Shown here one piece after another: positions 14,277-58,651 of a DNA stretch of 64,000 nucleotides (position 1 is the stretch's first letter; each line of letters begins with the position of its first letter). The DNA lies in NCBI GenBank assembly GCA_963691705.1, contig OY829539.1, forward strand, positions 6,698,501-6,762,500, in the 5' to 3' direction. This DNA is from Viola odorata (taxonomy: Eukaryota; Streptophyta; Magnoliopsida; Malpighiales; Violaceae). A model generated the notes under the pieces. It did not search any database, had not been told where the DNA came from, and was given only the letters and a program-made list of their open reading frames with translations. A program made the position numbers and the translations under genes.

Positions 14277-14805
14277 TGATAAGATCCGAGATCTCTTCTG
14301 GTCGGAAACGGCTGCTGCAGCTAGTCGGATGGGAAGCGAGCGGCGTCGGAGGTACCTGCAAAGCGCCGGAGGGGGACTCCGGCGTAGACACTCCGATGCT
14401 TAAGTCAGTTCGAGTTTTCAGAATGGTAGAGGTTCTCCAAGATGATCTCGATCTTACCTTTTGTTTGGAATTCGAAGGGGTATTTATAGGCTTAAGATGG
14501 CGATATCTTACAGCGATAGGGGATGGCAACGTTGTAACCATCGCTTCGGGCGATATCAGTTCCGTCATTGGGGCGATAATCATGTAGGGTCTATCGGGAG
14601 CGATATCCTCCTTGGTCCCCTAGGATGGGATGACGCCGTGCGCATAAAGGTGCATGAGATCCCCCCCCCCGCTGAAGTCGACCATCCTAGGAAATTTCCG
14701 CTGGCCCAGGCGATAGGTTGGCATTTTAGGGAAGCGTATAGAAACTTGTCCGGGATTGATGTCGTAGCCCCAATGTTGCCGTCAGGAGCATTCCAATTGT
14801 TATCA
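14277..14805 (-). repeat. C 3' LTR (529 bp)
   Basis: Plus strand reads TGATAAGATCCGAG...CAATTGTTATCA. It includes a TATAAATA box on the minus strand (14488-14481). Inverted arms CGCCGGAG and CTCCGGCG lie at 14364-14371 and 14377-14384. Several GCGATATC motifs occur in U3. Its mate is 29625-30151. Confidence 0.95.
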
Positions 14806-15511
14806 TAAGCCCAACTGAAAACTAGCCCGAGTGTTCACCAAGGGCTATCCACGTTTGATATCTTAGAATAGGGATCTGCTCGGTCATGAGGCGATATTAA
14901 TCTTCTTGGCCTCTCGATAGGGCTTATGAGGTCTCCACTTCGTTTAAGTCATAGAAGGACCGTTGTTGGGTTACGTGCGGCGTCATTACGGATATTCAAC
15001 CAGGCCGTGCCCTAGGCTGGCATATATTCGGGGCTATCGTCCTTTCGAGTGTACTGCAAAGACACAGAGGAGATAGATACTTATACAGAGGTTAGCAAAC
15101 CTTATACTTACAGAGGTCTGAGGTCACACGAGCCCCGATGTATTCTTTACGCCCGAGAGAGTAGTGGTATCAACGCGACTTTACGCCATCAGCTACCTTA
15201 TGGTTATCGCGGCTTCATACCACCAGACGCCTGTGATGCCAACGCGGTTTTACGCATCTAGGGCCACCGGTGACATCAACGCGGCCTTATACTGTGGATA
15301 CCGGTAACCTTATGGTTTTAGCGTCAGGGCTACCAGTGACATCGTGTCTTTCGGCGTTTTTTCAGACTCTGCCTCGTACTCCTTCCAGTATCTATATCGC
15401 GACCGTTACCCCTTTCTTCCGTTCTAGGCTTATCAGTCCTTGAGGATATCGGGACGGCTCGTCTTTTGAGGACCTCAATTTCTTTTTCCAAGGCCTCCCT
15501 TCAATGGAGCC
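14806..15511. other. C spacer upstream of the antisense gene set
   Basis: About 700 bases between the C 3' LTR and the first antisense gene. I see no conserved ORF. Degenerate repeats of a motif like ACATCAACGCGGCCTTATAC occur near 15160-15310, and H carries similar sequence at 60440-60610. It probably holds the upstream promoter of the first antisense gene. Confidence 0.55.
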
Positions 15512-15517
15512 TATAAA
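15512..15517 (+). promoter_or_regulatory. TATA box of antisense gene a (C)
   Basis: TATAAA 56 bases before the ATG at 15568. H has TATAAA at the equivalent place (60249-60244, 51 bases before its ATG). Confidence 0.65.
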
Positions 15518-15567
15518 TCGGAGAACTTTCTCCATCCACGTTCTCCTCATCTCTATCAGTCAGCATC

Positions 15568-15945
15568 ATGGATCATTTGACCAAGAATTTTCTTCTCTCC
15601 AAGGGTCATTCACTCAGGAACCTCAACGACGGTGACGTCGGTTTCCTGGAGAACATGCTGGTCAAGACTTCTGAGGATATTCTGGAGCTGCAGGGGATGC
15701 TGACTCCGCTCTATTCCCGGCTGGGAGCCATCTCTCTGGAGGACTTCAGTCCTTTGGAGAGTGTTTCAAAGCTGTCTGCCTCCATCTCTCGGATTCAAGT
15801 GGTGATCGCTATGCTGCAGCAGCGTAAGGACATGTTGGGGTGCTGCCTGAAGGGTATGAGGGCCACTTCCCATGATCTTGTCCTGGTCATGGATTCCTTG
15901 AGGGACCTTCCTGAGGTGCCCGAGGATGCTGGTTCTGACGCCTGA
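15568..15945 (+). CDS. Antisense gene a: 125-aa helical protein of Tat element C
   Basis: Intact ORF (MDHLTKNFLLSKG start, DAGSDA end) on the strand opposite gag-pol. The predicted protein looks mainly helical, with leucine-rich stretches such as LENMLVKTSEDILELQGML (about residues 29-47) and an IQVVIAMLQQRKD segment, suggesting a small coiled-coil or bundle. No signal peptide or membrane segment is seen. I recognise no family. The homologue in H (60193-59816) has the same length and very high identity, higher than expected of neutral decay. It has its own TATA box and an AATAAA signal, so it looks like a separate transcription unit. Function unknown. Confidence 0.8.
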   Translation: MDHLTKNFLLSKGHSLRNLNDGDVGFLENMLVKTSEDILELQGMLTPLYSRLGAISLEDFSPLESVSKLSASISRIQVVIAMLQQRKDMLGCCLKGMRATSHDLVLVMDSLRDLPEVPEDAGSDA

Positions 15946-16017
15946 TAACGGTGGCTCCCTTTGGGCCTTTTTCTTTTCCTCTTGCCTTGTAAATGTATCT
16001 TTCGGCCGGTAGGCCAT

Positions 16018-16027
16018 AATAAATAAA
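16018..16027 (+). terminator. Poly(A) signal of antisense gene a (C)
   Basis: Overlapping AATAAA hexamers (AATAAATAAA) 73 bases after the stop. H has the same decamer 74 bases after its stop (59742-59733, minus). Confidence 0.6.
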
Positions 16028-16336
16028 TCGTTTCAATCATTCCGCCTTGTAACTGTTCTTCTTCTTTACTGCGCTCTTTGTCATTTTCCAAGGAATATTC
16101 TTAGCCCAACTGAAAACAGTCTTGCCATTGGGCGGTTTTTCTGTTGATCGTTCTGCCTTAACTCCGCACCGTCCTCATTATAACAACTGATCGGCAGATA
16201 TTAGCATTATTCTTGATTTGCGCGAGATTTCAACAGGCATGACTTCAAATCTACATTTGCACTTCAGACTGTACACGTGCCAATCTTCAAGAGTCGGGTT
16301 GGAGGATCGAAGAGTCTCTTTTCTTCTTTTCCCAGC

Positions 16337-16343
16337 TATTTAA
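16337..16343 (+). promoter_or_regulatory. TATA-like box of antisense gene b (C)
   Basis: TATTTAA in the context CAGCTATTTAATGAGG, 83 bases before the ATG. H has GGCTATTTAAAGG in the matching position (59425-59418). Confidence 0.5.
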
Positions 16344-16419
16344 TGAGGCTTTTCCTCCTTCATTCTTATCCATTTCTTTCTCCTTCATTTTTCTTCGTTA
16401 TAGATCCTCTGCGAGTCTC

Positions 16420-16878
16420 ATGGCTGATTCTTATTTGCTAGGTACGACTTCGGGGAATTCACCGCCAACTCCTCCGACTACCCCTAACACAGATAATCCT
16501 CCCCCATCGCCTCCTTGGAGGCCGGTTATCCGCCGGCGAGGTCGCAAGAGGTGGAGAAAGGAAGTCGAACAACGAAGGAAGGAGGCTGCCAAGGCCTCTA
16601 AGTCATTTTTCGACTCTCTGGCTTCTCTGGCTAGGGAGGAGAAAAACTCGTTTCCTCCTTTGAGTGATTCGCCTCCGCGGGTTCCTTCTGCTGGTTCAGC
16701 CGTTGATGCAGTATCGCCAAGCGTTAAGGAGAAAACAACCGGGTCGACTACTGCCGCTAGAAAGAGGGTCGGTGAGTCTTCTCCCCCTGCTGTTGTGGAT
16801 TCACCATTCTGGGGTGGCGATGACGAAGAGGACGTAGTCTATTGCTACGGCATTACTTGGTCCGACGGTGAAGAGTAG
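16420..16878 (+). CDS. Antisense gene b: proline-rich, basic-acidic 152-aa protein
   Basis: ORF of 152 codons starting MADSYLLG. The N-terminus is Pro/Thr-rich, followed by PPWRPVIRRRGRKRWRK (about residues 30-46), a basic patch that could be a nuclear localisation or nucleic-acid binding segment. The middle is low complexity. The C-terminus is acidic and ends in the conserved DVVYCYGITWSDGEE. The H homologue (59348-58929) keeps the start, the PPWRP plus basic patch, and the VVYCYGI-WS tail, while the middle diverges. Conserved ends with a drifting linker suggest a real protein with two short interaction motifs. Family not recognised; function unknown. Confidence 0.72.
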   Translation: MADSYLLGTTSGNSPPTPPTTPNTDNPPPSPPWRPVIRRRGRKRWRKEVEQRRKEAAKASKSFFDSLASLAREEKNSFPPLSDSPPRVPSAGSAVDAVSPSVKEKTTGSTTAARKRVGESSPPAVVDSPFWGGDDEEDVVYCYGITWSDGEE

Positions 16879-17149
16879 GGCCTAACCCTTCTTTTTGTAG
16901 ATGCCGTATGGCCTTCCTCATAATAATGAATGATGGTTTTACTTCCTTTTCGCTTCTCATCGCTTACTTATTGTTTCTTTCTGAGCGTTCCGGGTTATCG
17001 CGGAAGCGTCCCTTTCGCTACGGGTAACTGCCTTCAACTTCTAATCGGTAACTGTCTTCTTTCAGAAGGCACAAATGACTATCCACGTGTCTTTTTCTGT
17101 TCTGTACGTGTTTCATTTTTACAGGTTGTCTCTTCTTTAGGCTTTCCTT

Positions 17150-17156
17150 TATAAGG
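17150..17156 (+). promoter_or_regulatory. TATA box of antisense gene 1 (C)
   Basis: TATAAGG in the context CCTTTATAAGGAAATC, 195 bases before the chosen ATG. H has CCCTTATAAGGG in the same position. A CTCCAG/GTATTT junction near 17298 (also CTTCCAG/GTATTT in H) might be a 5'-UTR splice donor; this is uncertain. Confidence 0.55.
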
Positions 17157-17344
17157 AAATCATCTCTCTCTTTTACTGCTTTTGCTAATATTTTGAGTTT
17201 TTGCACATTTTCTCTCTCTTCTGCACTTCTTTTCTTCGAGAGGTTTTACCGCGACTGCTCACTGGTGCCGGCGACTGGCTCACTGGCTTTTTGCTCCAGG
17301 TATTTACTCCTTCTACCGCCGTAGATTTACTTTCCCTGTCCCTT

Positions 17345-19588
17345 ATGTCTTCAACTGTTGAAAACCCCATAGATCCCGAAGCTAGGAGAACTCGCAGCAT
17401 ATTCAATTGTAATGAGGTTTTGAGGGTTGAATTAGAGGAGAGTGGTATTACTTTTCCCACGGGCTATCACCCTTTTGTCTCTTTGAAGGACACTCGGCTG
17501 CCTGACGCCATGTGGGGAACATTCCGGTTAGTTTATTTCAAGATGTTTACTTACGGATTCCGTTTCCCACTCCATACTTCTCTGTTGAAACTGCTAGATC
17601 ATTATGACCTTAATCCCGTCCAGATTACTCCACCCTCTTGGTGTGGTATTTACGCTTTCCTTCGTTCGTGCGAGATGAAGCGTATATTTGCTCCATCGCT
17701 TGATCTATTCCGCACGTTCTTTGTCTTGAGTTGTCGCAACTGCCTGGTAGATATTACCCCCAGATGGGATGATGTCATTGTGCAACTGTTCTGGCGGAAC
17801 TTTCAAGGTTTTGAGGAACACGTAGGTGACTGGAGGTCTGGCTTTTTCACCCTCCGTTTGCCGTCACGACTCTGGCGCGGGGGTTTCAATCGAAAAATCA
17901 ATAGTGGCGTTTGGAAAAGACCGGACGCGCTGTCAAGCCAGGATGTTTCCAACGCTAGCGCCTTGTTAGAAATAGAAGGGTCTTTCCGTATCCGGGAGTT
18001 TGCTCGGTTCAGGCCCTTGTCAGAGTGCGTTGTGGGTGAGTTCCCTTTTTTCTTCTTTATCGCTTCAATCTTCTTAATTTGCTAATATGTTTTGTTGGCA
18101 GGTAACGCTGAGAGTAGTTCTTCTGGGGAAAGTGACGCCCCTTTGAACGTAACACCTCTCCAGTCGCTGCCTCCTTCTCCTTCGCCTGAAAATTCCTGCC
18201 GCCCACCCCTTCCGCCTGGAAGGGAAGGGACTAAACCCGTCACAACTCGCAGAGCCTCCACTCAACCTTCTCGTTTCCTTGAAAATTGGCTTTCGTCCCG
18301 TGGCAAGAGGGTAGCTCAAGGCGATCCTGTGTTTGAGAAAATCGACAGCGATAGCGAGAGCATGGACACTGGTCCTGAATTACGTCATGCTACTATTGCC
18401 CAAAGGATGAAACTTAGGTCGAGGAGGAATGATGACACGGCGGAATCGGCTGAGGACGATAGCGAAGAAATTGCAGAAGAGACGGAGCGTCTCGTAAAGA
18501 AGGTTCGCACAGAGAAAACTAACCCCCCAGTTCCCCCTTTGAAGGGAGTTAACGCGGTCCCCCCCGAGAATATTAACGCTTCTCATACCGCGAGTACTTC
18601 GCAAGTGGTGAAAAATATCAAAGCTATCAGGGTGCCTTCCGCCGTTTCTATCGAAAACAATGAGACCTCGGCAGCCGCGACCTCTCCTTTGTCGTCGGGC
18701 CATCCTGCTTCCCCGATAGGTTCTTTTATCCCCGAGGCAACCCTACCGATTTCGAATTTAAGCGTTCCTCCTGAATTTCTCCCACGGAAGCCTCATCTTT
18801 TGTTTCTGTCTTCAATTTCGGTCGTTGGTGATTGCGCAAAAAGTTGTTCCCCTCCTTATATCGCCAACCTTTCTCCTCAGAGGTCCCAGGGCCCCACTGG
18901 ATATCAGCTGGATTTGTCCTCTTTCGGCACTGACGGGCTTCGTGCCTTAGGAATATCGGATCCATTATCGCGAGAAGAGCCCGTGGGTCCCATAGTGGGA
19001 CAGATGTTTACTTCTTCCAAGGACAGGGAAGAGTTTTTACAGCATGCTCCCGAGACACGACAGTCACACCTCATGAACGACATGCTGGCTAGCTTTCGGA
19101 AATTTCATTATTTTCTTGAAGACCAGCGTAACAAAACTCGACCCTCTTCGGATTTGCAGGAACAATTAGACGCGGCCTTGGCGAAGGCGAAGGAGCTATC
19201 GCAGTTGCAAGAACGAACTCGGGCGGAGTTGGAGGATTGTCGCGCTGAACTTTCTCGGGAGAAGTCGAAGGGGAAAGCGAGAGCAGAGCTTATGGAGGCG
19301 GAACTGGTGGTGGCTGATAAAAAGAACGCCTTCCTCCGTGAAGAGTTGTCATCTCGTGATGCCGATTTGGCCAAAGTTCCTTCGAGGATAGCCTGGTGGA
19401 AGAATAAGACCATCGAGGTTTGTATCGCAGGATTTATGGATCTCCATATCCGAGGCGCCGTCGATTCATCCATGCTGGCCGATTACGCTTCCCAAAAAAT
19501 TAAAGATCTTAGTGAAGGCGAAAGGGGTTTTCCTTCTTCTGGGGAAAAGCAAGGGAATGATGACGGCGAGGCATGCGATGACTCTTAA
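17345..19588 (+). CDS. Antisense gene 1: spliced Transposase_28-like protein, 725 aa
   Basis: Two exons, 17345-18035 and 18102-19588, joined in phase; 725 aa. The start is the ATG at 17345 because H has an ATG at the matching position and similarity begins there. Residues about 60-185 carry a domain like the plant Transposase_28 family (MFTYGFRFPL, ITPPSWCGIYAFL, DITPRWDD). This family is known from plant gypsy elements and its activity is unproven. Residues about 235-490 are low complexity with basic and acidic patches. About 495-565 is a conserved segment (LDLSSFGTDGLRALG, then KFHYFLEDQ), and about 580-650 is coiled coil. An AWWKNKT motif lies near 660. It is a paralogue of antisense gene 2 over this whole architecture. 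Both exons are open. Confidence 0.82.
18036..18101 (+). other. Intron in antisense gene 1 (66 bp)
   Basis: Donor GTGAGT, T-rich body, acceptor TTGGCAG; phase 1. The homologous intron in H (57750-57685) is also 66 bp, with donor GTGAGT and acceptor TTGACAG. Confidence 0.82.
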
Positions 19589-20037
19589 TTGATCCATTGA
19601 AGGACATTGCTATTTATTTTCCATGTCTTGTAATAACGTCCTATCTCGCGGCGATATCGGTACCTTGCTCTTCGGGCGATATCTTATTTTATTTCGCTCT
19701 CTTGTACTGTCTTGAGAACTGTTCTTTTATTCAACGCCGATTTGCATTATTTCCTTTCTTGTGATATCGCTTTTGCTTTTTATCAAAAAATCACATCTAC
19801 TTTTCAGAGCATTTAATGCTCGCGACCCTTCCGTCGGTGCGCGGGAAAAGTCATGATGGTGCAGACACACGTGTTCGTTTCTTCTGCCGCCTCACCTTAG
19901 CGTGTTTAGAAATTTTAACAAGATCGAAGCGTTTGTCGCGCTTCTTCTAGAGTCGTACTCATTGCTTGAGTCTTATCCCTCATGCCGCTTCGACACAACG
20001 ACTGCAGCATCCGTCGTTTCCTTTTAATTACTAGGGT
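19589..20037. other. Spacer between antisense genes 1 and 2 (C)
   Basis: No conserved ORF. It holds the 3' end of antisense gene 1 and the promoter of antisense gene 2. GCGATATC motifs occur near 19650-19680, like those in the C LTR. Confidence 0.55.
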
Positions 20038-20043
20038 TATAAA
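20038..20043 (+). promoter_or_regulatory. TATA box of antisense gene 2 (C)
   Basis: TATAAA in GGGTTATAAACCC, 170 bases before the ATG. H has GGATTATAAAACCC at the matching position. Confidence 0.62.
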
Positions 20044-20207
20044 CCCTCTTTATTTCTTCCCTTTTCTTTTTCACTCCCCTTTTTCATATTATCTCTCGGC
20101 CGTCTTGCCCTTCTCACCTCCATTCAAGGCTTTCGAAGTTCTTTCCTTTCAAAGGTATTTCCCTTCTTTTCCCTCGTCTTCTTCATTTCTATTTCCTTAG
20201 TCCTGCC

Positions 20208-22565
20208 ATGGCAAAGACTCGCCGTTCTGAGTCAAGATCCATCGATGAGAAGAAAATGGATACCACGGTCAGTGTTATTACCACGGAGGCCATTCTCCAG
20301 GAGCATTTGGCTACTCACGGTGCCGTTATTCCTGACGGTTATCAAGTTGTTGTTGCCCCTAGGTCAGTTCGTTTAAACAGCGTTCTGACCGGCAATCAAA
20401 GGGTGTTATATGCCCAGATGTTTCGCTATGGTTTCCGACTCCCTATCGATTCTTTCGTCAAGGATTTGCTTATTGCTGGCAATTTCAATCCTGCCCAGTT
20501 AGCCCCAAATGCTTATTGCTGTGTTTATGCTTTTTTGGAACTCTGTAGATATAAGGGGATCACTTCCCCTTCTCTTTTGTTGCTTAGATCCCTTTTTAAA
20601 TTGATGAAGTGCCGGGGTGTGATAACCATATCGCCTCGCTTTGACGATGATTCTCTCAAGTCTTTTACTTGGAAGTTGCTCCATATTGAGTCTTCTGTTG
20701 AGGCTTGGAAAAAGGAGTTCTTTCTGATAAATCTTCCTGACGCTCCTGGTCCCGAGTGGCGTTCTGGGTTCAACCAGGACGTCCAAGATGGCGTTTGGAG
20801 TCGACCAGGGACACTTCCCGCTCGTGAACAAGGATGGTTAAACACCTTACTCCAACTGGAGATCAGCGTTCATATTCGACTCACGGCCTGCAGAATGGCC
20901 ATTCAGGAGTGCGTTAGACGTGAGTATCGCGCTACTTTTCCCTTTCATCACTGATACTAACGCTGACGTTATTTTGTGATTTTGCAGCGACGGATCCTGA
21001 TTATAAACCCGAAAGCGTAAGAAGACGCTTAAGGAGAGCTCATAATAGAGAAGAAAGGGAAAAGCTCGATTCAGAGGCCACTGATAATCCTTCTGAGCTT
21101 CCGGCTACTTCCGCGAATCTCGCTCAAGTATCCTCCTCCTCAGTTGGCGAAGGGGATACTGACATCCCTGAAGGTGTTCCCATCGTGACCGTTGCTGCTC
21201 CCTCGTCTTCTCAGGCCCCTAAGGCCATTGCCAGAGGAAAAAAGAAGAAAAGAACACGGAGTATCGCCACTCTTACTCCTTCTCCCGACGCTGCGGGTTC
21301 TTCTGAGGCACCACCTTCCCTCGACACCGCTACCGTAAGCGTGTTTTTTTTTTTTTTTGGTGCGATATATTGTGCCTCAATATCTGTCGTCATTTGATCT
21401 ATTTTTCTTTTTTCTCAATTTGTACTCCTTGCAGGAGGCCGTTGTAGTTACTGCTTCCGCTCCTTCAGGCGATATGAATCTCACTTATGTGCTGAGGGGT
21501 TCCGCGAAGAGGGCCCGGATAGAAGGCGAGGATGAGAACATACCCTCCTCTAACATCGCGGGGGAAGGTGGTTCCATTAACGTTCCTAATTCCGCAGTGG
21601 TTCCTCCAGGTGGACATTCCGCGGAAGTTTTGGGGGACCTAGGAGGTGCGGATCCCTTTGGTGCTTCGCCCAGTTCCTTTGGTGGGCCTGTGCATCATTA
21701 TTCCTCTTCTTTAGGCTATCAAGACGTCTTGCAGGACCTTTCGAGCTATCAGCCTCATGGTACCTTCCTGCCCCCGGGCAGTTCTTCTTCACAGGTTCGC
21801 GCCCCTGGGCCTCTGGCTTTCGTTCCCTCTAGCGTTCCTTGGCGGCAACGCTATAATGAAGCCGGAACCTCTTTCAATTTTATGGCGGATCTTTGTCCAT
21901 TAAACGGGCTCGGCAAAGTGACCCATCAGGTTGAGTTGTTCGACTTCCGTACCCGTGGTTTGGCAGCCATCGGGGGCGATGGTTCAGATGAGGTTTCTAC
22001 CCTGCTGGCTTCTCAAATTCTGGCCTCATCTGCAGAACGGGAAACTTTCCTTTCCCTGGCGGAAGATGACCAAGTGAACTCCTTCCGTGCTAGCCTTTTC
22101 TCCAATATGATGAAATTTCACTACTGGGCGGAGGAGGTGAAGCATCGGACTGTTTCCCTCCGTTCTGTTTCGGCGGAGCTGTCCAAGGAGCAAGATGAAA
22201 GGAAAAAGGTGTTGGCAGATCGTTCCAAGATACTGCTGGCTCACCACGATTTACAGAAACAACATTCCGCTCTGGAAACAGCTTTGTCAGAGGAACAGGC
22301 CAAAGTGACTGCTTTGGAGAATGAGAAGTCCTCTTTAGAAAAGGAGAAGGCAGCTTTGGCGGAAGAGTCAGTCGATATGGGCTGGTGGCATGCTGAACAG
22401 ACCGCCCGTGTTCTAGTTAAGTGTTTCGAAGAAATTCATGGGGTGGATGCGTACAAGGGCGAAGATGTCGCGAAAGCCTTTCTACAGAGTTCTGCCCATA
22501 TCAACGAGGCAGGCTATCGCCAGGCCAAGGCAGCGGGCTGGAAACGAAAAGACCCCGAGAGCTGA
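20208..22565 (+). CDS. Antisense gene 2: spliced Transposase_28-like protein, 729 aa
   Basis: Three exons, 20208-20919, 20988-21334 and 21435-22565; the phases fit and give 729 aa. The start MAKTRRSESR is shared with H. Residues about 65-190 resemble the Transposase_28 family (MFRYGFRLPI, LAPNAYCCVYAFL, TISPRFDDDS). Exon 2 encodes a basic stretch (VRRRLRRA, then GKKKKRTRS), a likely nuclear or nucleic-acid-binding segment. About 520-580 is conserved with antisense gene 1 (HQVELFDFRTRGLAAIG, KFHYWAEE). About 595-665 is a strong coiled coil and GWWHAEQ follows near 668. All exons are open. Transcription converges with gag-pol. Role unknown; a chromatin, targeting or regulatory function is only a guess. 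Confidence 0.83.
20920..20987 (+). other. Intron 1 of antisense gene 2 (68 bp)
   Basis: GTGAGT donor and TTTTGCAG acceptor, phase 1. The preceding exon is 712 nt in both C and H; the H intron is 70 bp. Confidence 0.83.
21335..21434 (+). other. Intron 2 of antisense gene 2 (100 bp)
   Basis: GTAAGC donor followed by a long T run, acceptor CTCCTTGCAG, phase 0. The H counterpart is 54431-54337 with donor GTGAGT and acceptor TTCCTTGCAG. Confidence 0.8.
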
Positions 22566-23668: not shown

Positions 23669-25762
23669 TTAAACTCTAGGATAATATAACTTCAAACGAG
23701 CGATATTCCAGGAGTTGGATAAGGGCGTACCGTCAAGTGTCTCCAGGCGATAGGCCCCTCTTCCGACAACGTGGGTTACGCGATACGGTCCTTCCCAGTT
23801 AGGACTAAGCTTTCCCATACGTTGTCCGGTTGCTCGCCTGTCTCGGAGCACCAGGTCACCGTTTTTCAACAATCGCTCTTTGACCTGCCTGTTATGATAA
23901 CGGGCCATTTTTCTTTTGTAGTGTTGCGTTTTCAGTAGGACTTCTTCTCGAACCTCTGGTAACGCGTCCAGGTTAGCACGTAACCGTTCCTCGTTCAGTT
24001 CCTCACGAAAGTGAGCCACCCGTAGGCTCATGGCCCCAATTTCCACTGGCGTAACGGCTTCAGTTCCAAAAGCCAAAGCGAAAGGCGTTTCTCCAGTGCT
24101 AACTTTTACGGTCATGCGGTATGCCCACATCACATATGGCAATTCATCAGCCCACTTCTTCTTAGACCCCTCTATGTTTTTCTTAATACCGCTGAGGATG
24201 CTCCTATTAGTTACCTCTGCCTGTCCGTTGGTTTGTGGGTGAGCCACGGAAGAGAATCTCTGCTCAATCCCGAATTCTGAGCATTGGTCTTTGAAGAATT
24301 GGCTGGTGAACTGGGTCCCGTTATCGCTGACAAGGATACGAGGCACCCCGAATCTCATGATAACTTGATGTTTGAAAAAACGCCATGTTTTTTCTGCCGT
24401 GATTGTGGCAACCTCTTCAGCTTCCGCCCACTTCGTAAAATAGTCCACAACCACTATCACAAATTTCAGTTGGGACCTTGCCTTTGGAAATGGACCCAGG
24501 ATGTCAATCCCCCATTTGGCAAAAGGGCAAGGGGCGATGATTTCCGATATTTCCGTGGCTGGACGTCGAGGAATTTTAGCAAATTCCTGACATTTGGGGC
24601 AAGCTTGTACATAATCGTGGCAATCCCTTCGTATGGTGGGCCAGTAGAATCCTGATCTGAAAACTTGTGCCGCCATGGTGCCGCCTGACGCGTGCATTCC
24701 GCATATCCCTTCGTGGATTTCGCGTAAGGTGTGAAGGCCCTCTTGTTCGGTTATACATTTGGCGGCGGGGTGAGAAAAAAATCTTCGAATTAGATCCCCG
24801 TTATAGTACGTGCAACGAGCAGCCTGTCTTAGCACTTTCATCTTTTCAGCGTTACCGTCAGGCAGCTCTTCGTGCATCAGGTATTTTATCACTGGCATCC
24901 GCCAATCATTCTCGAGCTCATTCACACACAAAGAGGCTTGTTCCTCCATGAAGGACGGCACCGATAGCTCACGATAATACACATCTTTAGGTATAGATGC
25001 TTCAGGATTCGCGGCCAACTTGGCAAGGTAATCGGCTTCAGCATTTTCCTCTCGGGGAACGTGCTCGAAGCTGACTTGCATGCCCTCTTTCTTTATTTCC
25101 ACTAGTTCTCGCGTTACCTTAGAGAGGTACTGCACCATAATAGGTTCTCGAGCCTGAGAGTGTCCTGAGACCTGGTCAATTATCAGTTTGGAGTCTCCAC
25201 AAATTTTTAGACGCAGATCTCCTGTTTGGCCGGTATCGCGCCTTCCCTTGGAAGAAAACTCTCTTCCTATTCTGAGTCCAGCTAGCAACGCCTCATATTC
25301 GGCTGCGTTATTGGACAAAGGCTGCAAGATTCGAATAGCATACCGTATATGCATATCGTGCGACCCATTTATGAAGACTCCGGCCCCCGCCAGTTCTTGG
25401 TTTTTGGCTCCGTCCACATGAACGATCCAAAGATCCGTATATGTTTCTGGGAACGGGAGATCCATATCGTTCCATTCCGCTTCAGGTACACCACTCAAAG
25501 GGTCCTCTGTGAAAGTACACTCCGCTATAAAATCAGCAAGGACCTGAGCCTTTACGGATGGCCGGGACTGGTACCTCAAACCATATTGTTCGAGTTCTAG
25601 GGCCCAGATCAGCATTCTTCCTGAAGATTCAGGCTTTCGAAATATCCTCTTCAAGGGTTGGTCTGTAAGTACAACGATAGGATAAGACTGGAAGTATCGG
25701 TCCATCTTGCGGGCGACTTGTATGAGGGCGAACGCTATTTTCTCAATACGAGCATATCGCAG
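23669..25762 (-). CDS. pol: C pol, distal part: RNase H-integrase
   Basis: Continues the gag-pol frame after the stop at 25765-25763 and is open to its end near KLYYPRV. RNase H covers about 25480-24980 (HVDGAKNQELAGAG, later AEYEALLAGLRIG and the GDSKL segment). The integrase zinc-binding region lies around 24700-24600 (CPKCQEF). The catalytic core is about 24530-24170, with GIDILGPFPKA, DNGTQFTSQF and [12 protein letters not shown]-terminal tail follows. No chromodomain is seen, as expected for the Tat lineage. It can only be translated by reading through the TAA or from a repaired copy. Confidence 0.88.
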   Translation of the reverse strand: MRYARIEKIAFALIQVARKMDRYFQSYPIVVLTDQPLKRIFRKPESSGRMLIWALELEQYGLRYQSRPSVKAQVLADFIAECTFTEDPLSGVPEAEWNDMDLPFPETYTDLWIVHVDGAKNQELAGAGVFINGSHDMHIRYAIRILQPLSNNAAEYEALLAGLRIGREFSSKGRRDTGQTGDLRLKICGDSKLIIDQVSGHSQAREPIMVQYLSKVTRELVEIKKEGMQVSFEHVPREENAEADYLAKLAANPEASIPKDVYYRELSVPSFMEEQASLCVNELENDWRMPVIKYLMHEELPDGNAEKMKVLRQAARCTYYNGDLIRRFFSHPAAKCITEQEGLHTLREIHEGICGMHASGGTMAAQVFRSGFYWPTIRRDCHDYVQACPKCQEFAKIPRRPATEISEIIAPCPFAKWGIDILGPFPKARSQLKFVIVVVDYFTKWAEAEEVATITAEKTWRFFKHQVIMRFGVPRILVSDNGTQFTSQFFKDQCSEFGIEQRFSSVAHPQTNGQAEVTNRSILSGIKKNIEGSKKKWADELPYVMWAYRMTVKVSTGETPFALAFGTEAVTPVEIGAMSLRVAHFREELNEERLRANLDALPEVREEVLLKTQHYKRKMARYHNRQVKERLLKNGDLVLRDRRATGQRMGKLSPNWEGPYRVTHVVGRGAYRLETLDGTPLSNSWNIARLKLYYPRV

Positions 25763-28700
25763 TTACGCGTCCTTTAAGACATGACTCACGAAGTAAACTG
25801 GGCGATGAGTGTGGTTATCGTCACGAATAAGGACGGCGCTGACCACTTCGTCTGCCGCGCCCAAGTACAAGTACAGGGTATCGCCGGACTCGGGCCTTGT
25901 CAATAATAAATCGGATGATAAATAGTCCTTTAAGTCCACAAATGCTTGCTCACATTCTGGGGTCCACCCGAACGTGGCTTTCCGTCGTATGACTTTGAAA
26001 AAAGGGAGGCACTTTTCTCCTTGCTTGGAGACGAATCGTCCCAGAGCGATAACGCGCCCCGTTAGCCTTTGCACTTCCTTAACGGTTCTCGGCGATATCA
26101 TATCATGTATAGCTTTAACCTTGGAAGGATTAGGCTGGATACCTTTCTGGCTAACTACGTAGCCCAAAAACTTACCCGTCTGAAATGCAAACATGCACTT
26201 CCGGGGGTTTAGCTTCATGCGATACCTTTTCATCACATCAAAAACTTCCTTTAGATCCTGCAGGTGATCATGAAAATTCGCACTCTTCACCAGTATGTCG
26301 TCAACATATGCTTCCACATTTCTCCCTATTTTTTCCTCAAAAATCTTATTTGCCATTCGCTGAAACGTGGCCCCCGCGTTCTTTAGTCCAAATGGCATCA
26401 CTGTGTAACAATACGTGGCTTTAGGAGTAAGGAAGGCGGTCTTCTCCTCATCCTCTAGGGCCATAGGGATTTGATGATATCCGAAATTGGCGTCCAATGA
26501 GCTTAGATATGCGTACCCAGCTGTTTGATCAACCAACTGATCTATGCGAGGAAGCGGGTAGCAATCCTTAGGACAAGCATCGTTCAAATCGGTGAAGTCA
26601 ATGCACATACGCCAGTCTCCATTGGGTTTAGGAACAAGAACCGGGTTGGCTAACCAAGTGGGATATTGTACTTCGCGAATGAAACCCGCGTCAAGGAGCT
26701 TTACAACCTTCTTTTCCACAGCCGACGCTTTTTCGGTGGAGAACGCCCGTCGTTTTTGCTGAACTGGCTTGGCGTCAGGGTCAACGTTAAGCCTGTGTTC
26801 GGCTATTTCTCGTGATATACCTGGCATATCGGCGGGCTTCCATGCGAAATTTCCTTGGCATTTGTTCAGCAGCCATGCCAGTTGAAGATTTTCCGCTGGG
26901 CTGAGCTTATCGCTGACCAGGAAGCTGGCTCCCTCTTTGCCTATCACTGATACGGGTACCATCTTGTCAAGGGGTTGAGCGCGCTTTTCATCACCCTGCT
27001 CGTAGGGGTCTGCCGCTATACACACGTATCTATCGCAGCTTGTCTGAGTCATGAGCGAATAGCATTCTGCCGCCAGTTTCTGATCACCTTTTATCGATAC
27101 CACCCCGTCCCAGGAGGGGTATTTCATCTTTAGATGTTTTTGTGATATCGCCGCTCCAAAGCGATTGAGGAAAGGTCGTCCGAGTATGACGTTATAGGGC
27201 AGATTCAGATCCACAACAAGGAACAACAAATTCTCTGACCGTTTGTAAGTGTCTTCCCGGAAGTATACGGGTAAGGTGATTACTCCCGTAACAGGGATAG
27301 GGGTCCCATCCACGCCGACTATGGGTCTCTTACTAGGCGTTAACTCATCGTGGGGGCGTTTCATGAGGTTGTAAGCTTCCAGCGAAAAAAGGTTCACGGC
27401 ACTCCCGTTGTCCACAAGAGTCCTTCTTATACCATGACTGGCGATGACAGGTGTGACTACCAAGGCATCATTATGGGGATAGATAACGCCTTTTTCATCC
27501 TCTTCTGAAAAGGATAAGATCATGCGATCAAGTATGTCTATCGCTCCACCTTTCTTTGTCATGCCGTCTCGCGTACGCTTTTCCCCTTTCGCCACCATCG
27601 ACTGTTCTGACTCATCTGCGTAGGGGATCCCTCCCACTATGATATTGATTATGGGGATGTCGACGCCATCTATCGCGAAGGTTTCCCCACCCTTTCCTTT
27701 GGGAGCGTTATCCGGCTGTGGGACTGGAGGGGGCCTTGGTCGTTCGTCTGCCGCTCTTCTTATCGGATTGTTTCGGGCATCTTCCCTTACTTGAGTCGCA
27801 AATTCTCCCAGATATCCTTCCTCCACCAAGCGCTCTATCGCCCACTTTAATTCTCTGCAAGCCTTTGTGGAATGTCCTCTAGCTTTATGGAATTTACAGT
27901 AAGCGTTTTCTCTTCTGCCTAAAAGCACTCCAGGTTTCGTGGGTGCAGGATAACGGATAGGAAGATCTCGCCGTTCCGCTATCGCCAAGATCTCCGCTCT
28001 TGGTACATTCAAGGAGGGAAAATCCGGATCATACGCCCGATTTTTGTTAGCGTTCCCTTGACGCTGATGAGGGGAACTACCTTGTTTTCCTTTCGAGGAA
28101 TTTCCTTTTTGCTTATCGTAGGTCTTTGGGATGTAATCTTTCCGTCGAGCGTAATCATCAGTGTAATGATCGTCAACCAGAGGATTTGCGGGAGCGGCAG
28201 GGATGTGAGGTGCCCCAGGCGGCATATTAAATGTTCTATTTCTATTTTCTTCTTCTTCCATTTTCGCATAATTATGGGCTTTAAGTCTTAGTGCGTCCAA
28301 GGATATTGGAGGATCCACCATCAATGCATCTTTCAGTTTTCCATAGTGGCAGTTTCTTTTCAGAGCTTCTATGGCGAAATCAATAGTAACACCCGGCGTT
28401 AATGACATTTCCAGATCGAATCGGCTGAGAAATTCTTTCAATGTCTCTTGGGGCTTCCGCTGTATGTCAAATAACGCTGCAGCAGATTTCCAAATTGGAA
28501 TTGCTGTACTAAATCTGCTCCGAAATTTGGATTCCAACTGTGCGAAATTACTAATGGATCCGCCAGGAAGACCTTCAAACCAAAGACGAGCAACTCCCGA
28601 TAAGGTCATAACAAATATCTGACATAAAGCCGCATCACTGTGGGTTTGAAATTGGACGAAATCCTTCACTTTGTTGATGTGCGAAATAGGATCTTTAGTA

Positions 28701-29539
28701 CCATCATAAGTATCAGCGGGAAGCTTCACTCGCCTACTGACCCTGTGACGTCTTACACGACGACTGAAAGGGTGACCTGAGGTATCATCAAGAATCTCAC
28801 GCGCATGACGTGGGGGAGATATGTCTCCTTGTCGCCCTCCTTCCCTTGGTTCAGGTATATGATGTCGCCTGGGAGACCGACTGCGACTCCTGGGAGAACG
28901 ACTTCGATATCTTCTGCTACTGGATCTTTCACTGTACACGGGAGGTAAACTCCTGTTTGTTCCTTCCCTCCGTCCGGCCCAACGGTTCCCCAACGCCTCA
29001 AGCTGCCTGTCTTCCTGCAGAAGAAGTCTTTGTGGCATTTGTGGTACATAAGCCTCTACTTCTCCTTGAGTGAGCTGTACATGACCAACCGGGGGATTTC
29101 CTGCGGATAAAGGCACTTGGGGGTTCTCTGGAAACAACGGGGGCAGAGGTCGATCAGCAACAATAGATGGTGTGAACATGACGCGAGGAGGAACGCTAGA
29201 TCCAGAAGCACCAGGCGTGACTCTAGTGGCCATTTCAGTCAAATATTCCAAGCGGGAACGAAGGGCCGCTATTTCCATAGCAAAGGGATTTTCATTGTTA
29301 AGCACAGATCCTTCTAAAAGAGGAGTGTAAAGATCAGATCCCACCGTCTGTGATGAAGAAATGACCGTCTGTGAGGAGATAGATCCTCCGGCGATCCCGA
29401 CCGAGAGGTCCAGAGGTCCCGAGATAGTCGATTGCGTCGTCATAGAGAGGTCAGCAGTAGCAAAAGGAAATAACCGCCTGCGAGTTGAGAAAGGAATATT
29501 GGAAAATGTAGACCGGTCTGGCTCCGATCTGGCTGTCAT
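25763..29539 (-). CDS. gag-pol: C gag-protease-RT (1,258 aa)
   Basis: The start is the first ATG after the primer site (29539-29537); the earlier open codons begin with GTG and are an unlikely plant start. Capsid region about residues 275-420 (TYDGTKDPISHINKVKDF, FEGLPGGSI). A Cys/His knuckle CKFHKARGHSTKAC is near 546. Protease core VDNGSAVNLF is near 708; Asn replaces the usual Thr. RT has WRMCIDFTDLNDACP near 976 and the catalytic YVDD near 1078. The frame ends at TAA (25765-25763) between RT and RNase H, where H has GAG. That is the only break I see in the gag-pol of C. Confidence 0.9.
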   Translation of the reverse strand: MTARSEPDRSTFSNIPFSTRRRLFPFATADLSMTTQSTISGPLDLSVGIAGGSISSQTVISSSQTVGSDLYTPLLEGSVLNNENPFAMEIAALRSRLEYLTEMATRVTPGASGSSVPPRVMFTPSIVADRPLPPLFPENPQVPLSAGNPPVGHVQLTQGEVEAYVPQMPQRLLLQEDRQLEALGNRWAGRREGTNRSLPPVYSERSSSRRYRSRSPRSRSRSPRRHHIPEPREGGRQGDISPPRHAREILDDTSGHPFSRRVRRHRVSRRVKLPADTYDGTKDPISHINKVKDFVQFQTHSDAALCQIFVMTLSGVARLWFEGLPGGSISNFAQLESKFRSRFSTAIPIWKSAAALFDIQRKPQETLKEFLSRFDLEMSLTPGVTIDFAIEALKRNCHYGKLKDALMVDPPISLDALRLKAHNYAKMEEEENRNRTFNMPPGAPHIPAAPANPLVDDHYTDDYARRKDYIPKTYDKQKGNSSKGKQGSSPHQRQGNANKNRAYDPDFPSLNVPRAEILAIAERRDLPIRYPAPTKPGVLLGRRENAYCKFHKARGHSTKACRELKWAIERLVEEGYLGEFATQVREDARNNPIRRAADERPRPPPVPQPDNAPKGKGGETFAIDGVDIPIINIIVGGIPYADESEQSMVAKGEKRTRDGMTKKGGAIDILDRMILSFSEEDEKGVIYPHNDALVVTPVIASHGIRRTLVDNGSAVNLFSLEAYNLMKRPHDELTPSKRPIVGVDGTPIPVTGVITLPVYFREDTYKRSENLLFLVVDLNLPYNVILGRPFLNRFGAAISQKHLKMKYPSWDGVVSIKGDQKLAAECYSLMTQTSCDRYVCIAADPYEQGDEKRAQPLDKMVPVSVIGKEGASFLVSDKLSPAENLQLAWLLNKCQGNFAWKPADMPGISREIAEHRLNVDPDAKPVQQKRRAFSTEKASAVEKKVVKLLDAGFIREVQYPTWLANPVLVPKPNGDWRMCIDFTDLNDACPKDCYPLPRIDQLVDQTAGYAYLSSLDANFGYHQIPMALEDEEKTAFLTPKATYCYTVMPFGLKNAGATFQRMANKIFEEKIGRNVEAYVDDILVKSANFHDHLQDLKEVFDVMKRYRMKLNPRKCMFAFQTGKFLGYVVSQKGIQPNPSKVKAIHDMISPRTVKEVQRLTGRVIALGRFVSKQGEKCLPFFKVIRRKATFGWTPECEQAFVDLKDYLSSDLLLTRPESGDTLYLYLGAADEVVSAVLIRDDNHTHRPVYFVSHVLKDA

Positions 29540-29604
29540 AACCGTTCCGATATCCCAACTAAACGGAGCTTGGCTATTAAGGACGCTCACTTAATACACC
29601 AAAG

Positions 29605-29624: not shown

Positions 29625-30151
29625 TGATAAGATCCGAGATCTCTTCTGGTCGGAAACGGCTGCTGCAGCTAGTCGGATGGGAAGCGACCGGCGTCGGAGG
29701 TACCTGCAAAGCGCCGGAGGGGGACTCCGGCGTAGACACTCTGATGCTTAAGTCAGTTCGAGTTTTCAGAATGGTAGAGGTTCTCTAAGATGATCTCGAT
29801 CTTACCTTTTGTTTGGAATTCGAAGGGGTATTTATAGGCTTAAGATGGCGATATCTTACAGCGATAGAGGATGGCAACGTTGTAACCATCGCTTCGGGCG
29901 ATATCAGTTCCGTCATTGGGGCGATAATCATGTAGGGTCTATCGGGAGCGATATCCTCCTTGGTCCCCTAGGATGGGATGACGCCGTGCGCATAAAGGTG
30001 CATGAGATCCCCCCCCGCTGAAGTCGACCATCCTAGGAAATTTCCGCTGGCCCAGGCGATAGGTTGGCATTTTAGGGAAGCGTATAGAAACTTGTCCGGG
30101 ATTGATGTCGTAGCCCCAATGTTGCCGTCAGGAGCATTCCAATTGTTATCA
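29625..30151 (-). repeat. C 5' LTR (527 bp)
   Basis: Mate of 14277-14805, differing at four substitutions and a poly-C length (8 C here, 10 there). The stem arms are at 29712-29719 and 29725-29732. Confidence 0.95.
29829..29836 (-). promoter_or_regulatory. TATA box of C 5' LTR
   Basis: TATAAATA on the minus strand in the context GCCTATAAATACCCC. The same sequence occurs in the H and S LTRs, so it is the likely sense promoter core of this group. Confidence 0.7.
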
Positions 30152-45589: not shown

Positions 45590-46172
45590 TGATAACCATT
45601 AAGGCAATCCTAAGGGCATTTCTGTAATTATGACCCCTGCCGAAGAGGGCGTCCCACGAGCCTTGTCGGACATTTAAGCTATCGCTACCGGACCTTGAAG
45701 TGTTTACTGGGATGGTCGACATCAGTGGGGGGGAGGTCTCACGCGTCTCTTAACGCACGGCATCATCCCATCCCAGGGACCTATAGAGATATCGCCCCCG
45801 ACATGATCATAGGTATCGCCCCCGGTACCCTCCTCAGAGACATCAACCTTGACGTTACCTCAGGTATCGCTGATGACATCGGGTTCAGGTATCGCCCGTG
45901 ACGTCATCAGGAGCGACGTCTCACCTGGATATCGCCTTACGTCCAGCTATCGCCTCTAGTGGCCTATAAATACCCCTTAATGAAAAACATCAAGTAAGCC
46001 AGAATTCACTTACTAGAACCGCTGCTATTTTTGAACCACTTACTACTTAAGCATCAGACTGTCTACGCCGGAGCCCCCCTCCAGTGCCTTGCAGGTGAGT
46101 TCGACGACAACTACAGCAACACCGACCATCGGAAGTCACCATCCCGATCGCACAAGAGATAGAATCTTAACA
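45590..46172 (+). repeat. H 5' LTR (583 bp)
   Basis: Starts TGATAACCATTAAGGCAATC, ends AGAATCTTAACA. It has a 7-G tract, repeated GGTATCGCCC motifs, one TGACGTCA at 45899 and a TATA box. Confidence 0.95.
45965..45972 (+). promoter_or_regulatory. TATA box of H 5' LTR
   Basis: TATAAATA in GGCCTATAAATACCCC, the same as in C and S. Confidence 0.7.
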
Positions 46173-46175
46173 AAT

Positions 46176-46193
46176 TGGTGCTTTCATTGAGAG
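46176..46193 (+). promoter_or_regulatory. H primer binding site
   Basis: TGGTGCTTTCATTGAGAG, three bases after the LTR; identical to C. tRNA not assigned. Confidence 0.8.
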
Positions 46194-46258
46194 CCTTGGT
46201 ATATTAAGTGAGCATCCTTAATATCCAAGCTCTGTTCTACCCAGAGATCGAAACAATC

Positions 46259-48127
46259 ATGAATTCTGAGTTGGAACGGACGTGACCCCCATCTTCTAAT
46301 GTTCCTTTCACGATTCGTAGACAGTTATTTTCTTTTGCTACTGCTGAACTTTCTGGGACGGCACAACAAATCAGTACAGAATCCCTAAACCCTTTGACCA
46401 GGTCTGCAGGGGAAGCTCTCTCCTCGCAGGCGACCATTTCGTTGTCCCAAATGGCGGGATCCAGCTTCTCTACTCCTGCTTCGAGGGGATTTGTGTTAAA
46501 TAGTACAGAATGCCCTTTTGCGAGTGAAATAGCGGCCCTTCGTTCTCGGTTGGACTATTTGACTGAAATGGCTGCCAGAATGACACCTGAAATCTCCGGA
46601 TCGAGTGTCCCTCCCCGTGTCATGTTCACACCGTCTATTGTCATCGAGCGGCCCTTGTCACCATCATTACAGGGAAATCTCCAGTCAACTTTATCCGTAG
46701 CTGATCACCCGATTAATTTTGTGCATCTCACTCAAGGACGAGTGGAACCTTATGTGCCGCAAGTGCCCCTAGGTCCCATCCCTCTGGAGGATCGGCACCT
46801 GGAAGAGGCCAGAAACCGTTGGGACGGTCGAAGGGAAGGAGCGAATAGGGATTTGTCTCCTAAGCGCAGTGAAAGATCCAGCAGTAGGAGATATTGAACT
46901 CGCTCGCCCAAAAGCCACAGTCGGTCTCCTAGGCGACATCCCACGCCAGATCCACGAAATTGGAGGGATCCTGCGGAAATGTCTCCCCCATGCCAGGAGC
47001 GTGAAATTCTTGATGACACATCAGGTCATCCATTTAGCCGTCGTATAAGACGTCATAAGGTCAGTCGACATGTGAAGCTTCCCACTGAGACTTATGACGG
47101 CACTAGAGATCCCATTTCACACATCAATAAGGTGAAGGATTTCGTGCAGTTTCAGACGCACAGTGATGCGGCGTTATGCCAAATATTTGTTATGACATTA
47201 TCAGGGGTTGCGCGCCTCTCGTTCGAGGGCCTTCCCGGCGGATCTATTAGCAATTTCGCACAGTTGGAATCAAAGTTTCGGAGCCGTTTCAGTATAGCGA
47301 TTCCAATCAGGAAATCTGCAGCCGCGTTATTTGACCTACGTCGAAGGCCTCAGGAAACTCTGAAGGAATTTCTTAGTCAATTTGATCTGGAAATGTCACT
47401 AACGCCGGGCGTTACCATTGATTTTGCTATAGAAGCTTTGAAGAGGAACTGCCGTTATAGTAAATTAAGAGATACACTAATGGTGGACCCTCCAGCGACT
47501 CTAGACGCTTTAAGACTTAAAGCTCATAATTACGCGAAAATGGAAGAGGAAAACAGAGAGAGAACCTATGGCATGCCACCTGAGGCACCTCTGATTCCGA
47601 ACGCTCCTGCAAATACTATTCTTGATGACCGCCTCACCGAAAGATCATATTCCCAAAACCTCCAGTGGGCGGAAAGGTAACACTTCGAAGGGAAAACCTG
47701 GCAGTTCCCCATCTCAACGCCAAGGAGATTCTTCTAAAGGTCGGGCATACGATCCTGATTTCCCTTCCCTTAATCTACCAAGGGCAGAGATTTTAGCGAT
47801 AGTGGAACAGCGAAACCTTCCCATCCGGTACCCCGCGCCCGTAAAGCCCAGAGTACTTCTAGGGAGAAGAGAAAACGCTTATTGTAAGTTCCACAAAGCC
47901 AGGGGGCATTCTACAGAAGTATGCAGGGACTTAAAATCAGCAATAGAACGTTTGGTGGAAGAAGGTTACTCGGGAGAATTCGCAACCAAAGTAAGAGAAG
48001 ACACCATAAATAATCCCACGAAAGGGTCGCAGATGACCGACAAGTATCCCCTCGCGTCCCACAAAAGGATAATGCTCTCGGAGGAAGAGGTGAGGAAACT
48101 TTCGCAGTTGATGACGAGGGCTTCCCT
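46259..48127 (+). pseudogene. gag: H gag, broken
   Basis: Homologue of C gag. The ATG at 46259 is followed by a TGA at codon 9; another TGA is near 46896 where C has CGA. The capsid region at about 47040-47560 is well kept (TYDGTRDPISHINKVKDF). A frameshift near 47630 and another near 48020 shift the frame around the Cys/His knuckle CKFHKARGHSTEVC (about 47890). Confidence 0.85.
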
Positions 48128-55572: not shown

Positions 55573-55741
55573 GGCAGAAATAAAAAAGTAAAGATGAAGA
55601 AGACGACGAAAGAAAAGATGAGGTACCTTTAAAGAGAAAGCGCTTCGAGAACCTTGAACTGTGGAAAGAAAATAAGACGGCTAGAGAAAGTATGAAGAAA
55701 GCAGAACGGCCAAAGTAAGCAAAAGAAAACAAGTATTGGGT

Positions 55742-55747
55742 TTTATA
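55742..55747 (-). promoter_or_regulatory. TATA box of H antisense gene 2
   Basis: TATAAA on the minus strand, 170 bases before the ATG, the same spacing as in C. Confidence 0.6.
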
Positions 55748-56244
55748 ATCCTAATAGCCAAAGAAACGACAGACGTTGCAGTCGTTGCGTGAGAGGATCA
55801 CTAGGAAAAGACTCAAGCAATGAGTACAATTCTAGAAAGAGCGCGGCAACGCTTCGATTTTGCTAAAATTATAGAGCACGCTAGCCCATGGCGCCATAAA
55901 AAATAGACACGTGTGTCTATGCCAGGATGACTTTTCTCCCGCATCTATGAGAAGATCGTAAGCATTAAATGCTCTGAAAAGAAAGGATTTTTTTAAAATA
56001 AGACAAGAGCGATACTACACTAGAGAAGATAACGCGGAATGGCGTTAACCAAGCCGGTATCCTCCGGGATAACGTGGAAAAGCAAAGCAAAGATTATTTA
56101 TTATCTAAAAATGAAGTGCAAATATCGTTTCGCACGGAAAGGCGTTATTACAATACAAGAAAAAGTGAATAAATGGGAAAATCTTCCCAGAGAATCAGCC
56201 TTGACCAGTCGATGGCCGGCACAGATATCGCTGCCACCATTCGC
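55748..56244. other. Spacer between H antisense genes 2 and 1
   Basis: Holds upstream sequence of gene 2 and the 3' end of gene 1. No gene seen. Confidence 0.5.
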
Positions 56245-58645: not shown

Positions 58646-58651
58646 CTTATA
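58646..58651 (-). promoter_or_regulatory. TATA box of H antisense gene 1
   Basis: TATAAG on the minus strand inside CCCTTATAAGGG, about 190 bases before the ATG, matching C. Confidence 0.55.

Follow-up and report, generated by a model that had tools for sequence, protein, structure and literature searches.

The 64,000-nucleotide (nt) stretch of the Viola odorata genome considered here (the window, contig OY829539.1, whose positions serve for all coordinates) contains two long terminal repeat (LTR) retrotransposons, C and H, that each carry a set of four genes between pol and the 3' LTR. These genes, a, b, c and d, lie antisense to gag-pol and follow the same order in both elements. The initial annotation had reported four open reading frames (ORFs) opposite to gag-pol in C that recur in the same order in H, and they are present as described; a and b are indeed single ORFs, but c and d each consist of several exons and are paralogous. 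In C, the frame of every one of the four genes is open when c and d are spliced as predicted. Genes a and b encode small, unnamed proteins (Table 1), while c encodes 725 amino acids (aa) in two exons and d encodes 729 aa in three. Both c and d match the Transposase_28 family (TRP28, PF04195) above its curated cut-off, and their C-terminal parts (exon 2 of c, exon 3 of d) appear coiled-coil-like by reading, with Pfam matches that are sub-threshold only. In H, a and b are intact, c and d are broken by stops and frameshifts, and the cassette spans 60193 to 53230.

Comparison of C with H suggests that the four reading frames are maintained as protein-coding genes. The ratio of nonsynonymous to synonymous substitution (dN/dS, or omega) is 0.07 for a, 0.39 for b (0.26 by protein-guided alignment), 0.16 for c and 0.17 for d. 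Shifted frames give 0.73-2.83 against the 0.07-0.39 found in frame, and this loss of the codon signal in the controls rules out chance ORFs. Insertions and deletions (indels) between C and H are all multiples of three in b and are absent from a. When proportions of differences are used instead (pN/pS), gene a has a ratio of 0.124 (0.067/0.540), next to 0.117 for the gag core, 0.112 for the protease-reverse transcriptase (PR-RT) portion and 0.115 for 3' pol; by these values, the constraint on gene a between the two elements equals that on gag and pol.

To extend the comparison, 20 stretches were fetched from the same genome out of 142 listed matches, favoring rows with few stops and spreading the choice over identities, and two further stretches (L034 and L035) were added from a 150-row list for PF04195. 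Gene a is present in 17 of the 22 fetched copies, and with C and H this makes 19. Gene order is kept in all 19, including those in which gene a has fallen to 50% identity to that of C (the range across element families of this genome is 50-98%); gene b was located in 16 of them and went undetected in three. Five of the first 20 copies (L009, L011, L012, L017 and L026) showed no gene a, and a further 9-10 kb upstream of each yielded neither gene a (E <= 1e-3) nor the LTR-edge motif described below (<= 1 mismatch). Copy L009 has part of c ~13 kb upstream of d and, in the intervening DNA, another integrase-like match. This arrangement resembles a nested insertion, so it is not established that the lack of gene a is a family trait. 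Genome-wide, 142 of the 150 best-scoring gene a matches and 146 of the 150 best-scoring matches to d exon 1 are without a stop, and the best-scoring copies are biased towards intact ones.

A codon model fitted to 14-22 of these copies (kappa fixed at 1; L034 and L035 left out) returned omega values of 0.16 for a, 0.50 for b, 0.23 and 0.31 for c exons 1 and 2, and 0.19 and 0.33 for d exons 1 and 3; with kappa free, the value for a is 0.20. These estimates include decay after insertion, and omega in the close pair L016-L020 is 0.43-0.85 for a, for exon 2 of c, and for exons 1 and 3 of d. Gene b gives 0.26-0.52 in three deeper pairs. Its start is kept and a DVVYCY-type acidic end is found in 12 of 14 aligned copies, a pattern that would suit a disordered protein with short conserved contacts. 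Taken between families, purifying selection acts on all four genes, weakly in the case of b; a dN/dS near 1 throughout, the outcome that the initial annotation had set against its proposal, was not found.

The GT-AG ends of the three predicted introns in C align in H. The donor site of gene c is kept in 19 of 19 copies in which the end of exon 1 was located, and both ends of the first intron of gene d are kept in 22 of 24 copies (exceptions L011 and L026), 21 of those 22 having TACTAA inside. The TRP28 parts of c and d are 34% identical (E 2e-35), their C-terminal parts match again (E 4e-12), and their first introns occupy an identical site in an identical phase. Because of this paralogy and the shared site and phase of the first intron, c and d are taken as an old tandem duplicate of one intron-containing TRP28 gene. 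The duplication would predate the split between C and H, given that c resembles d much less than the C version of either gene resembles its H version. Donor-like blocks also occur about 50 nt before the start codons, AGGTAT in gene c (~17298; 12 of 13 copies) and AAAGGT in gene d (~20151; 16 of 17 copies), and no fitting acceptor was found for either. An intron in the 5' untranslated region of c and d, considered from a conserved AGGTATT block, was rejected as too short (~25 nt in c, ~46 nt in d), and in d its acceptor is absent in H.

Each of the four genes is preceded by a TATA-like box. Using the patterns TATAWA, TATTTAA and TATAAG, variants chosen after the sequence had been seen, six matches were found on the antisense-gene strand of the 8.9-kb region between pol and the 3' LTR of C: one upstream of each gene and two within the coding sequence of d exons. 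Each of the six has a counterpart in H at the corresponding alignment position (within 6 columns), as against two of seven on the opposite strand. From box to ATG, the distances in C and H are 56 and 56 nt for a, 83 and 77 for b, 195 and 195 for c, and 170 and 175 for d. In dinucleotide shuffles, 2-11% of 200-nt upstream stretches contain such a box; multiplied over the four genes, this gives ~5e-6 for C and 1.4e-5 for H, figures to be read with the choice of variants in mind. Among the copies (with distance taken to the expected place of the ATG where it is lost), TATAAA lies 55-68 nt upstream of gene a in 18 of 19, TATTTAA 73-83 nt upstream of b in 15 of the 16 with b located, TATAAG 195-198 nt upstream of c in 13 of the 18 with a located start, and TATAAA 170-182 nt upstream of d in 19 of 19. 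Between -30 and -250 of the start codon in C, the TATA window ranks first in conservation among hexamer windows for gene a (a level reached by 1 of 221 windows) and within the top two for b and for d; for gene c, 12 of 221 windows are kept equally well or better. Boxes at a near-fixed distance in most of the 19 copies therefore lend support to four separate promoter-equipped units. At the other end of gene a, a polyadenylation-like signal, AATAAATAAA, holds the sole AATAAA block on the antisense-gene strand of the 8.9-kb region in C. Both the matching boxes and this signal, placed by the initial annotation 73-74 bases after the gene a stop in the two elements, were confirmed, the boxes being aligned at near-equal distances and the signal beginning 73 bases after the stop in C and aligning in H. 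The G-box CACGTG occurs in the C region at 16274, 17084 and 19868, upstream of b, c and d, and only the one before d aligns in H. Of the three sites in H, one precedes c, one precedes d and one lies within b, leaving a G-box link no more than suggestive.

Table 1. Positions of the antisense genes, their putative signals and the surrounding retrotransposon features in the window (TSD, target-site duplication)
Feature	Position	Strand	Remarks
Gene a box, TATAAA, C	15512..15517	+	
Gene a, C	15568..15945	+	125 aa; predicted helical
Gene a polyadenylation-like signal, AATAAATAAA, C	16018..16027	+	73 bases after gene a stop; aligns in H
Gene b box, TATTTAA, C	16337..16343	+	
Gene b, C	16420..16878	+	152 aa; ends conserved, basic stretch, middle fast-evolving
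Gene c box, TATAAG, C	17150..17155	+	
Gene c exon 1, C	17345..18035	+	TRP28 (PF04195)
Gene c predicted intron, C	18036..18101	+	66 nt; GT-AG
Gene c exon 2, C	18102..19588	+	
Gene d box, TATAAA, C	20038..20043	+	
Gene d exon 1, C	20208..20919	+	TRP28 (PF04195)
Gene d predicted intron 1, C	20920..20987	+	68 nt; TACTAAC-like sequence inside
Gene d exon 2, C	20988..21334	+	
Gene d predicted intron 2, C	21335..21434	+	100 nt
Gene d exon 3, C	21435..22565	+	
Gene a, H	59816..60193	-	Intact; TATAAA begins at 60249
Gene b, H	58929..59348	-	Intact; 139 aa
Gene c, H	56209..58456	-	Broken: exon 1 has a stop, exon 2 a frameshift
Gene d, H	53230..55572	-	Broken: frameshifts and stops in exon 3
LTR-edge motif, outer copy, C	14808..14821	+	AGCCCAACTGAAAA (TTTTCAGTTGGGCT in gag-pol sense); 2 nt from 3' LTR, polypurine-tract position
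LTR-edge motif, internal copy, C	16103..16116	+	157 nt after gene a stop
LTR-edge motif, internal copy, H	59642..59655	-	
LTR-edge motif, outer copy, H	60983..60996	-	
3' LTR, C	14277..14805	-	LTR alignment; TSD ATAAG at 14272-14276 and 30152-30156
5' LTR, C	29625..30151	-	LTR alignment against C 3' LTR
gag-pol, C	23669..29590	-	Open as two ORFs (25763-29590, 23669-25705)
Element H	45590..61607	+	LTRs 45590-46172 and 60999-61607; TSD TTGAT

Both elements have the two LTRs and the 5-bp TSD of an LTR retrotransposon. Element C, delimited by LTR alignment and by reading its ends, occupies 14277-30151 with gag-pol on the - strand, and its LTRs differ by 4 mismatches in 531 aligned bases; in H, with gag-pol on the + strand, the LTRs differ by 17 mismatches in 583. 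In the second pol ORF of C, Pfam matches run from RT_RNaseH (residues 3-41, below cut-off) through RVT_3 (97-231) and an integrase zinc-binding domain (326-375) to rve (392-490), so that an additional RNase H (aRH, RVT_3) stands between RNase H and integrase, which is the Ogre/Retand arrangement within the Tat clade (PMC6317226). As expected of Retand elements, PF04195 ORFs lie antisense between pol and the 3' LTR (46.5 bits for c and 33.4 bits for d, with a cut-off of 26.2). Because of the second RNase H in pol and the antisense PF04195 genes, C and H are assigned to Retand-like Ty3/gypsy elements. The region from pol to the 3' LTR, ~8.9 kb in C and likewise in H, exceeds the 2.9-6.6 kb reported in a 2025 survey of Retand elements (Vicient 2025, PMC11963269), a range that is descriptive and not part of the definition.

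The remainder of the window holds further repeats. Another retroelement forms an inverted pair within 1-14276 (1120-6934 versus 14276-8450, 94% identical), and a further partial copy of it lies at 35835-37474. A segment at 37597-37755 has ~80% identity to part of the LTRs of H, and is possibly a solo LTR or the remnant of a related element. In the right LTR of H, 30 consecutive G occupy 61136-61165, compared with 7 in the left LTR, a difference due to slippage or an assembly artefact. No tRNA genes were found in the 64-kb window.

Collectively, the 3' region of C and H is probably an antisense gene cassette of four genes, with TATA boxes of their own, predicted introns and a history of purifying selection. 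That assessment applies to the gene-cassette reading as a whole and leaves the guessed function of its products outside. Within it, each cassette gene is very probably transcribed independently by RNA polymerase II, as the TATA boxes together with the kept introns are what independent, spliced units would leave behind. Antisense placement would hide introns and 3' signals from the sense genomic RNA, and introns could survive reverse transcription for that reason. It could also allow the accessory genes to be expressed when the LTR promoter is not.

Several observations weigh against this interpretation. The copies compared all come from one genome and were picked by similarity, mostly with few stops, which makes them a non-random sample; many are broken, and gene a is uninterrupted in 12 of 19. 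Integrase had a single row and thus falls outside the codon-model values. Exon 2 of gene d is weakly constrained, with a pairwise median omega of 0.72 (35 of 45 pairs) and a value of 1.34 in the C-L021 comparison. In three recent pairs, omega rises to 1.19-1.32 for gene b, while a, c and the exons of d other than exon 2 have 0.06-0.52 there. A TATA box is absent within 250 nt of gene c in 5 of 18 copies; four of the five have TATAAA at -295 to -359 of the approximate start, and the fifth has none. The AlphaFold model of TRP28 is unusable (mean predicted local distance difference test score, or pLDDT, of 36.8) and a Foldseek search of the gene a model against PDB and BFVD returned 0 matches at E <= 0.001. 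Moreover, the promoters, splicing and 3' ends assigned to the cassette genes are read from the DNA sequence only.

One alternative is that the antisense transcripts act as RNA, in the form of double-stranded RNA, a source of small interfering RNA or a trans-silencing RNA, with the proteins being incidental. Antisense RNA regulation of LTR elements has been discussed (PMC12786077, PMC7264820), and gene b is nearly unconstrained in recent pairs. An RNA role, however, needs no frame-specific constraint such as that seen in a, c and d, nor does it need the multiple-of-three indels of b, the lack of indels in a or the kept splice sites, and it is improbable. The cassette might instead be a mobile element in its own right, such as a DNA transposon encoding a Transposase_28 protein, which entered an ancestral retrotransposon and has simply travelled with it since. 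Four autonomous genes would resemble an inserted unit and the Pfam name contains the word Transposase, but that support lies in the name only. Synonymous divergence (dS) between C and H is alike in the cassette (0.95-1.53) and gag-pol (1.1-1.7) and therefore, though near saturation, fits shared descent; the region has also been reported as without similarity to other known transposable elements in the text of the Retand survey (PMC11963269). This makes an inserted element very improbable. Introns and TATA boxes are likewise what host genes have, and recent capture of host genes by transduction would explain both. The cassette, however, is present in divergent element families of this genome, and gene a found no homolog in a protein collection that seems to contain few plant proteins, the host genome not having been searched for single-copy relatives; recent capture is likewise very improbable.

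A different choice arises over the 14-base LTR-edge motif AGCCCAACTGAAAA, which occurs four times in the window at <= 1 mismatch, every time exactly, where 0.01 would be expected. Both C and H have one copy 2 nt from the 3' LTR and one 157-160 nt after the stop of gene a. All 19 copies that carry gene a have the internal motif between genes a and b, with 0-2 mismatches, and in the 17 measured it lies ~137-179 nt past the expected gene a stop; the bases before it vary between families and some after it (YGAGTC) recur in most. The outer copy was located in 17 of 19 and always follows the LTR-end sequence TTATCA-TA, the LTRs themselves being mapped in C and H only. By comparison, 154 other 14-base windows of the same non-coding stretches are kept in a median of 1 of 16 copies, and the other well-kept windows belong to the remainder of the LTR edge and to the AATAAA block of gene a. 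Three copies of one subfamily share an identical T-to-C change in both motif copies, and a fourth has it in the internal copy only. Reverse transcription requires its plus-strand primer to be located next to the 3' LTR, as the outer copy is; the internal copy may accordingly serve as a second plus-strand origin, or else be a trace of the way in which the gene a module was acquired. An internal copy of 3' LTR-edge sequence is the feature in common with the central polypurine tract of lentiviruses and the second polypurine tract of Ty1; as read from the sequence, the motif differs from these in lying outside pol, in the 3' accessory region beside gene a. Usual polypurine tracts are purine-rich and TTTTCAGTTGGGCT is not, which counts against a standard polypurine tract. 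The motif could instead be a protein-binding site, for example a target of c, d or a host factor. This reading is helped by the absence of a purine-rich composition and by the two copies, one before a and one before b, pointing the same way with respect to the antisense genes. No copy, however, lies upstream of c or d in the window, and the position of the outer copy behind TTATCA-TA in 17 of 17 copies where it was found is the place necessary for a plus-strand primer, so that a binding site is a serious contender that falls somewhat short of an even chance. Literature searches for a central polypurine tract, narrowed by three further terms, and for an internal polypurine tract combined with retrotransposon gave no match.

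In a protein collection that seemingly holds few plant proteins, gene a produced 19 candidates with none at E <= 0.01, and a 7-row alignment of it produced 463 candidates with no match. A TRP28 alignment (A1) found one protein at E <= 0.001 among 4603 candidates, which is 59% identical to d exon 1 and comes from a 1,068-base contig. Scans of IMG/VR with gene a, gene c exon 1, A1 and a 24-base LTR-edge sequence confirmed none, nor did a scan of GTDB contigs with A1, and PDB sequence searches with gene a and d exon 1 reached E 0.18-0.6 at best. AlphaFold predicts three helices for gene a (mean pLDDT 72.5 from a 2-row alignment). Readings of b as Rev-like and of a as a circadian repressor were rejected, as their Pfam matches (E 0.34 and 0.14) are below cut-off.

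It is possible, though we hold the idea only tentatively, that the cassette proteins form an accessory set working in trans within the nucleus. Those with TRP28 domains, c and d, might be DNA-binding, oligomerizing regulators of the element's own chromatin or transcription, with the gene a product as a small helical partner or structural subunit and the gene b product as a disordered adaptor tracking a changing host target. Nuclear, trans-acting roles for c and d would be in line with GENE23 of the Grande element, a nuclear protein whose gene has its own promoter (PMC7264820), and with the predicted DNA binding of TRP28 (PMC11963269). An anti-silencing role may be proposed by comparison with VANC of the VANDAL DNA transposons, where element-encoded proteins act on the element's own non-coding motifs (PMC12844716). 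The likeness is functional only: VANC belongs to another element class and targets tandem repeats, whereas the motif here occurs twice per element. In its fullest form, the proposal would be that a four-gene antisense program, in which every gene has a promoter to itself and the TRP28 genes c and d are spliced, works in trans to maintain expression of the element in the face of host silencing, and that two primer-sequence copies frame the gene a module, providing a second plus-strand origin and a route for module gain and loss by template switching. We regard that combination as unlikely.

Antisense TRP28 genes are themselves a published hallmark of Retand elements, as the initial annotation had noted for the Tat lineage. 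In the text of the 2025 survey, which considered ORFs of at least 600 bp, they occur in all but two clusters, and 57 TRP28 ORFs are counted among 104 antisense ORFs from 63 clusters (PMC11963269). The surveyed elements resemble C and H in having antisense PF04195 ORFs between pol and the 3' LTR, SMC-like antisense ORFs and a long 3' region; they differ from C and H, in which the region is longer, the TRP28 genes are a pair of paralogs predicted to contain introns, and two further genes fall under the size cut-off. The words "intron" and "TATA" do not appear in the survey text, as distinct from its figures and supplements (PMC11963269). Grande gene23 of maize is likewise an antisense accessory gene, with one gene described where C and H have four, each with a conserved TATA box (compared by description; PMC7264820). 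By description also, antisense ORFs between pol and the 3' LTR are shared with Retand ORF3/ORF4 of Silene, RIRE2 of rice and PvRetro13 (PMC7264820, PMC11728184). The initial annotation had considered four promoter-equipped antisense units to be not well described; this stands for the four-gene set, but an own promoter for one such gene had already been reported in Grande gene23 (PMC7264820). Four promoter-equipped antisense genes per element, tandem TRP28 paralogs, conserved introns and a doubled LTR-edge motif were not found in the literature searched, whose scope stops short of several older papers and of figures and supplements, so that an earlier description is possible. The kind is known, and the four-gene set is the new part.

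The function of the Retand antisense genes is left open in the text of the studies that describe them (PMC7264820, PMC11963269). The present locus turns that question into testable units, namely four gene models with predicted promoters and splice sites and a candidate 3' signal for gene a. It also bears on how such genes are cataloged: a 600-bp ORF cut-off would miss genes a and b, although a is constrained like gag and pol in the C-H comparison, and the structure of c and d suggests that ORFs listed separately can be exons of one gene. For the antisense placement a simple reason is offered, in that introns and 3' signals would leave the genomic RNA undisturbed, and the doubled LTR-edge motif provides a concrete test case for a second plus-strand origin in plant elements. 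Finally, the constraint on the cassette genes suggests that they are important for how these elements live in the genome.

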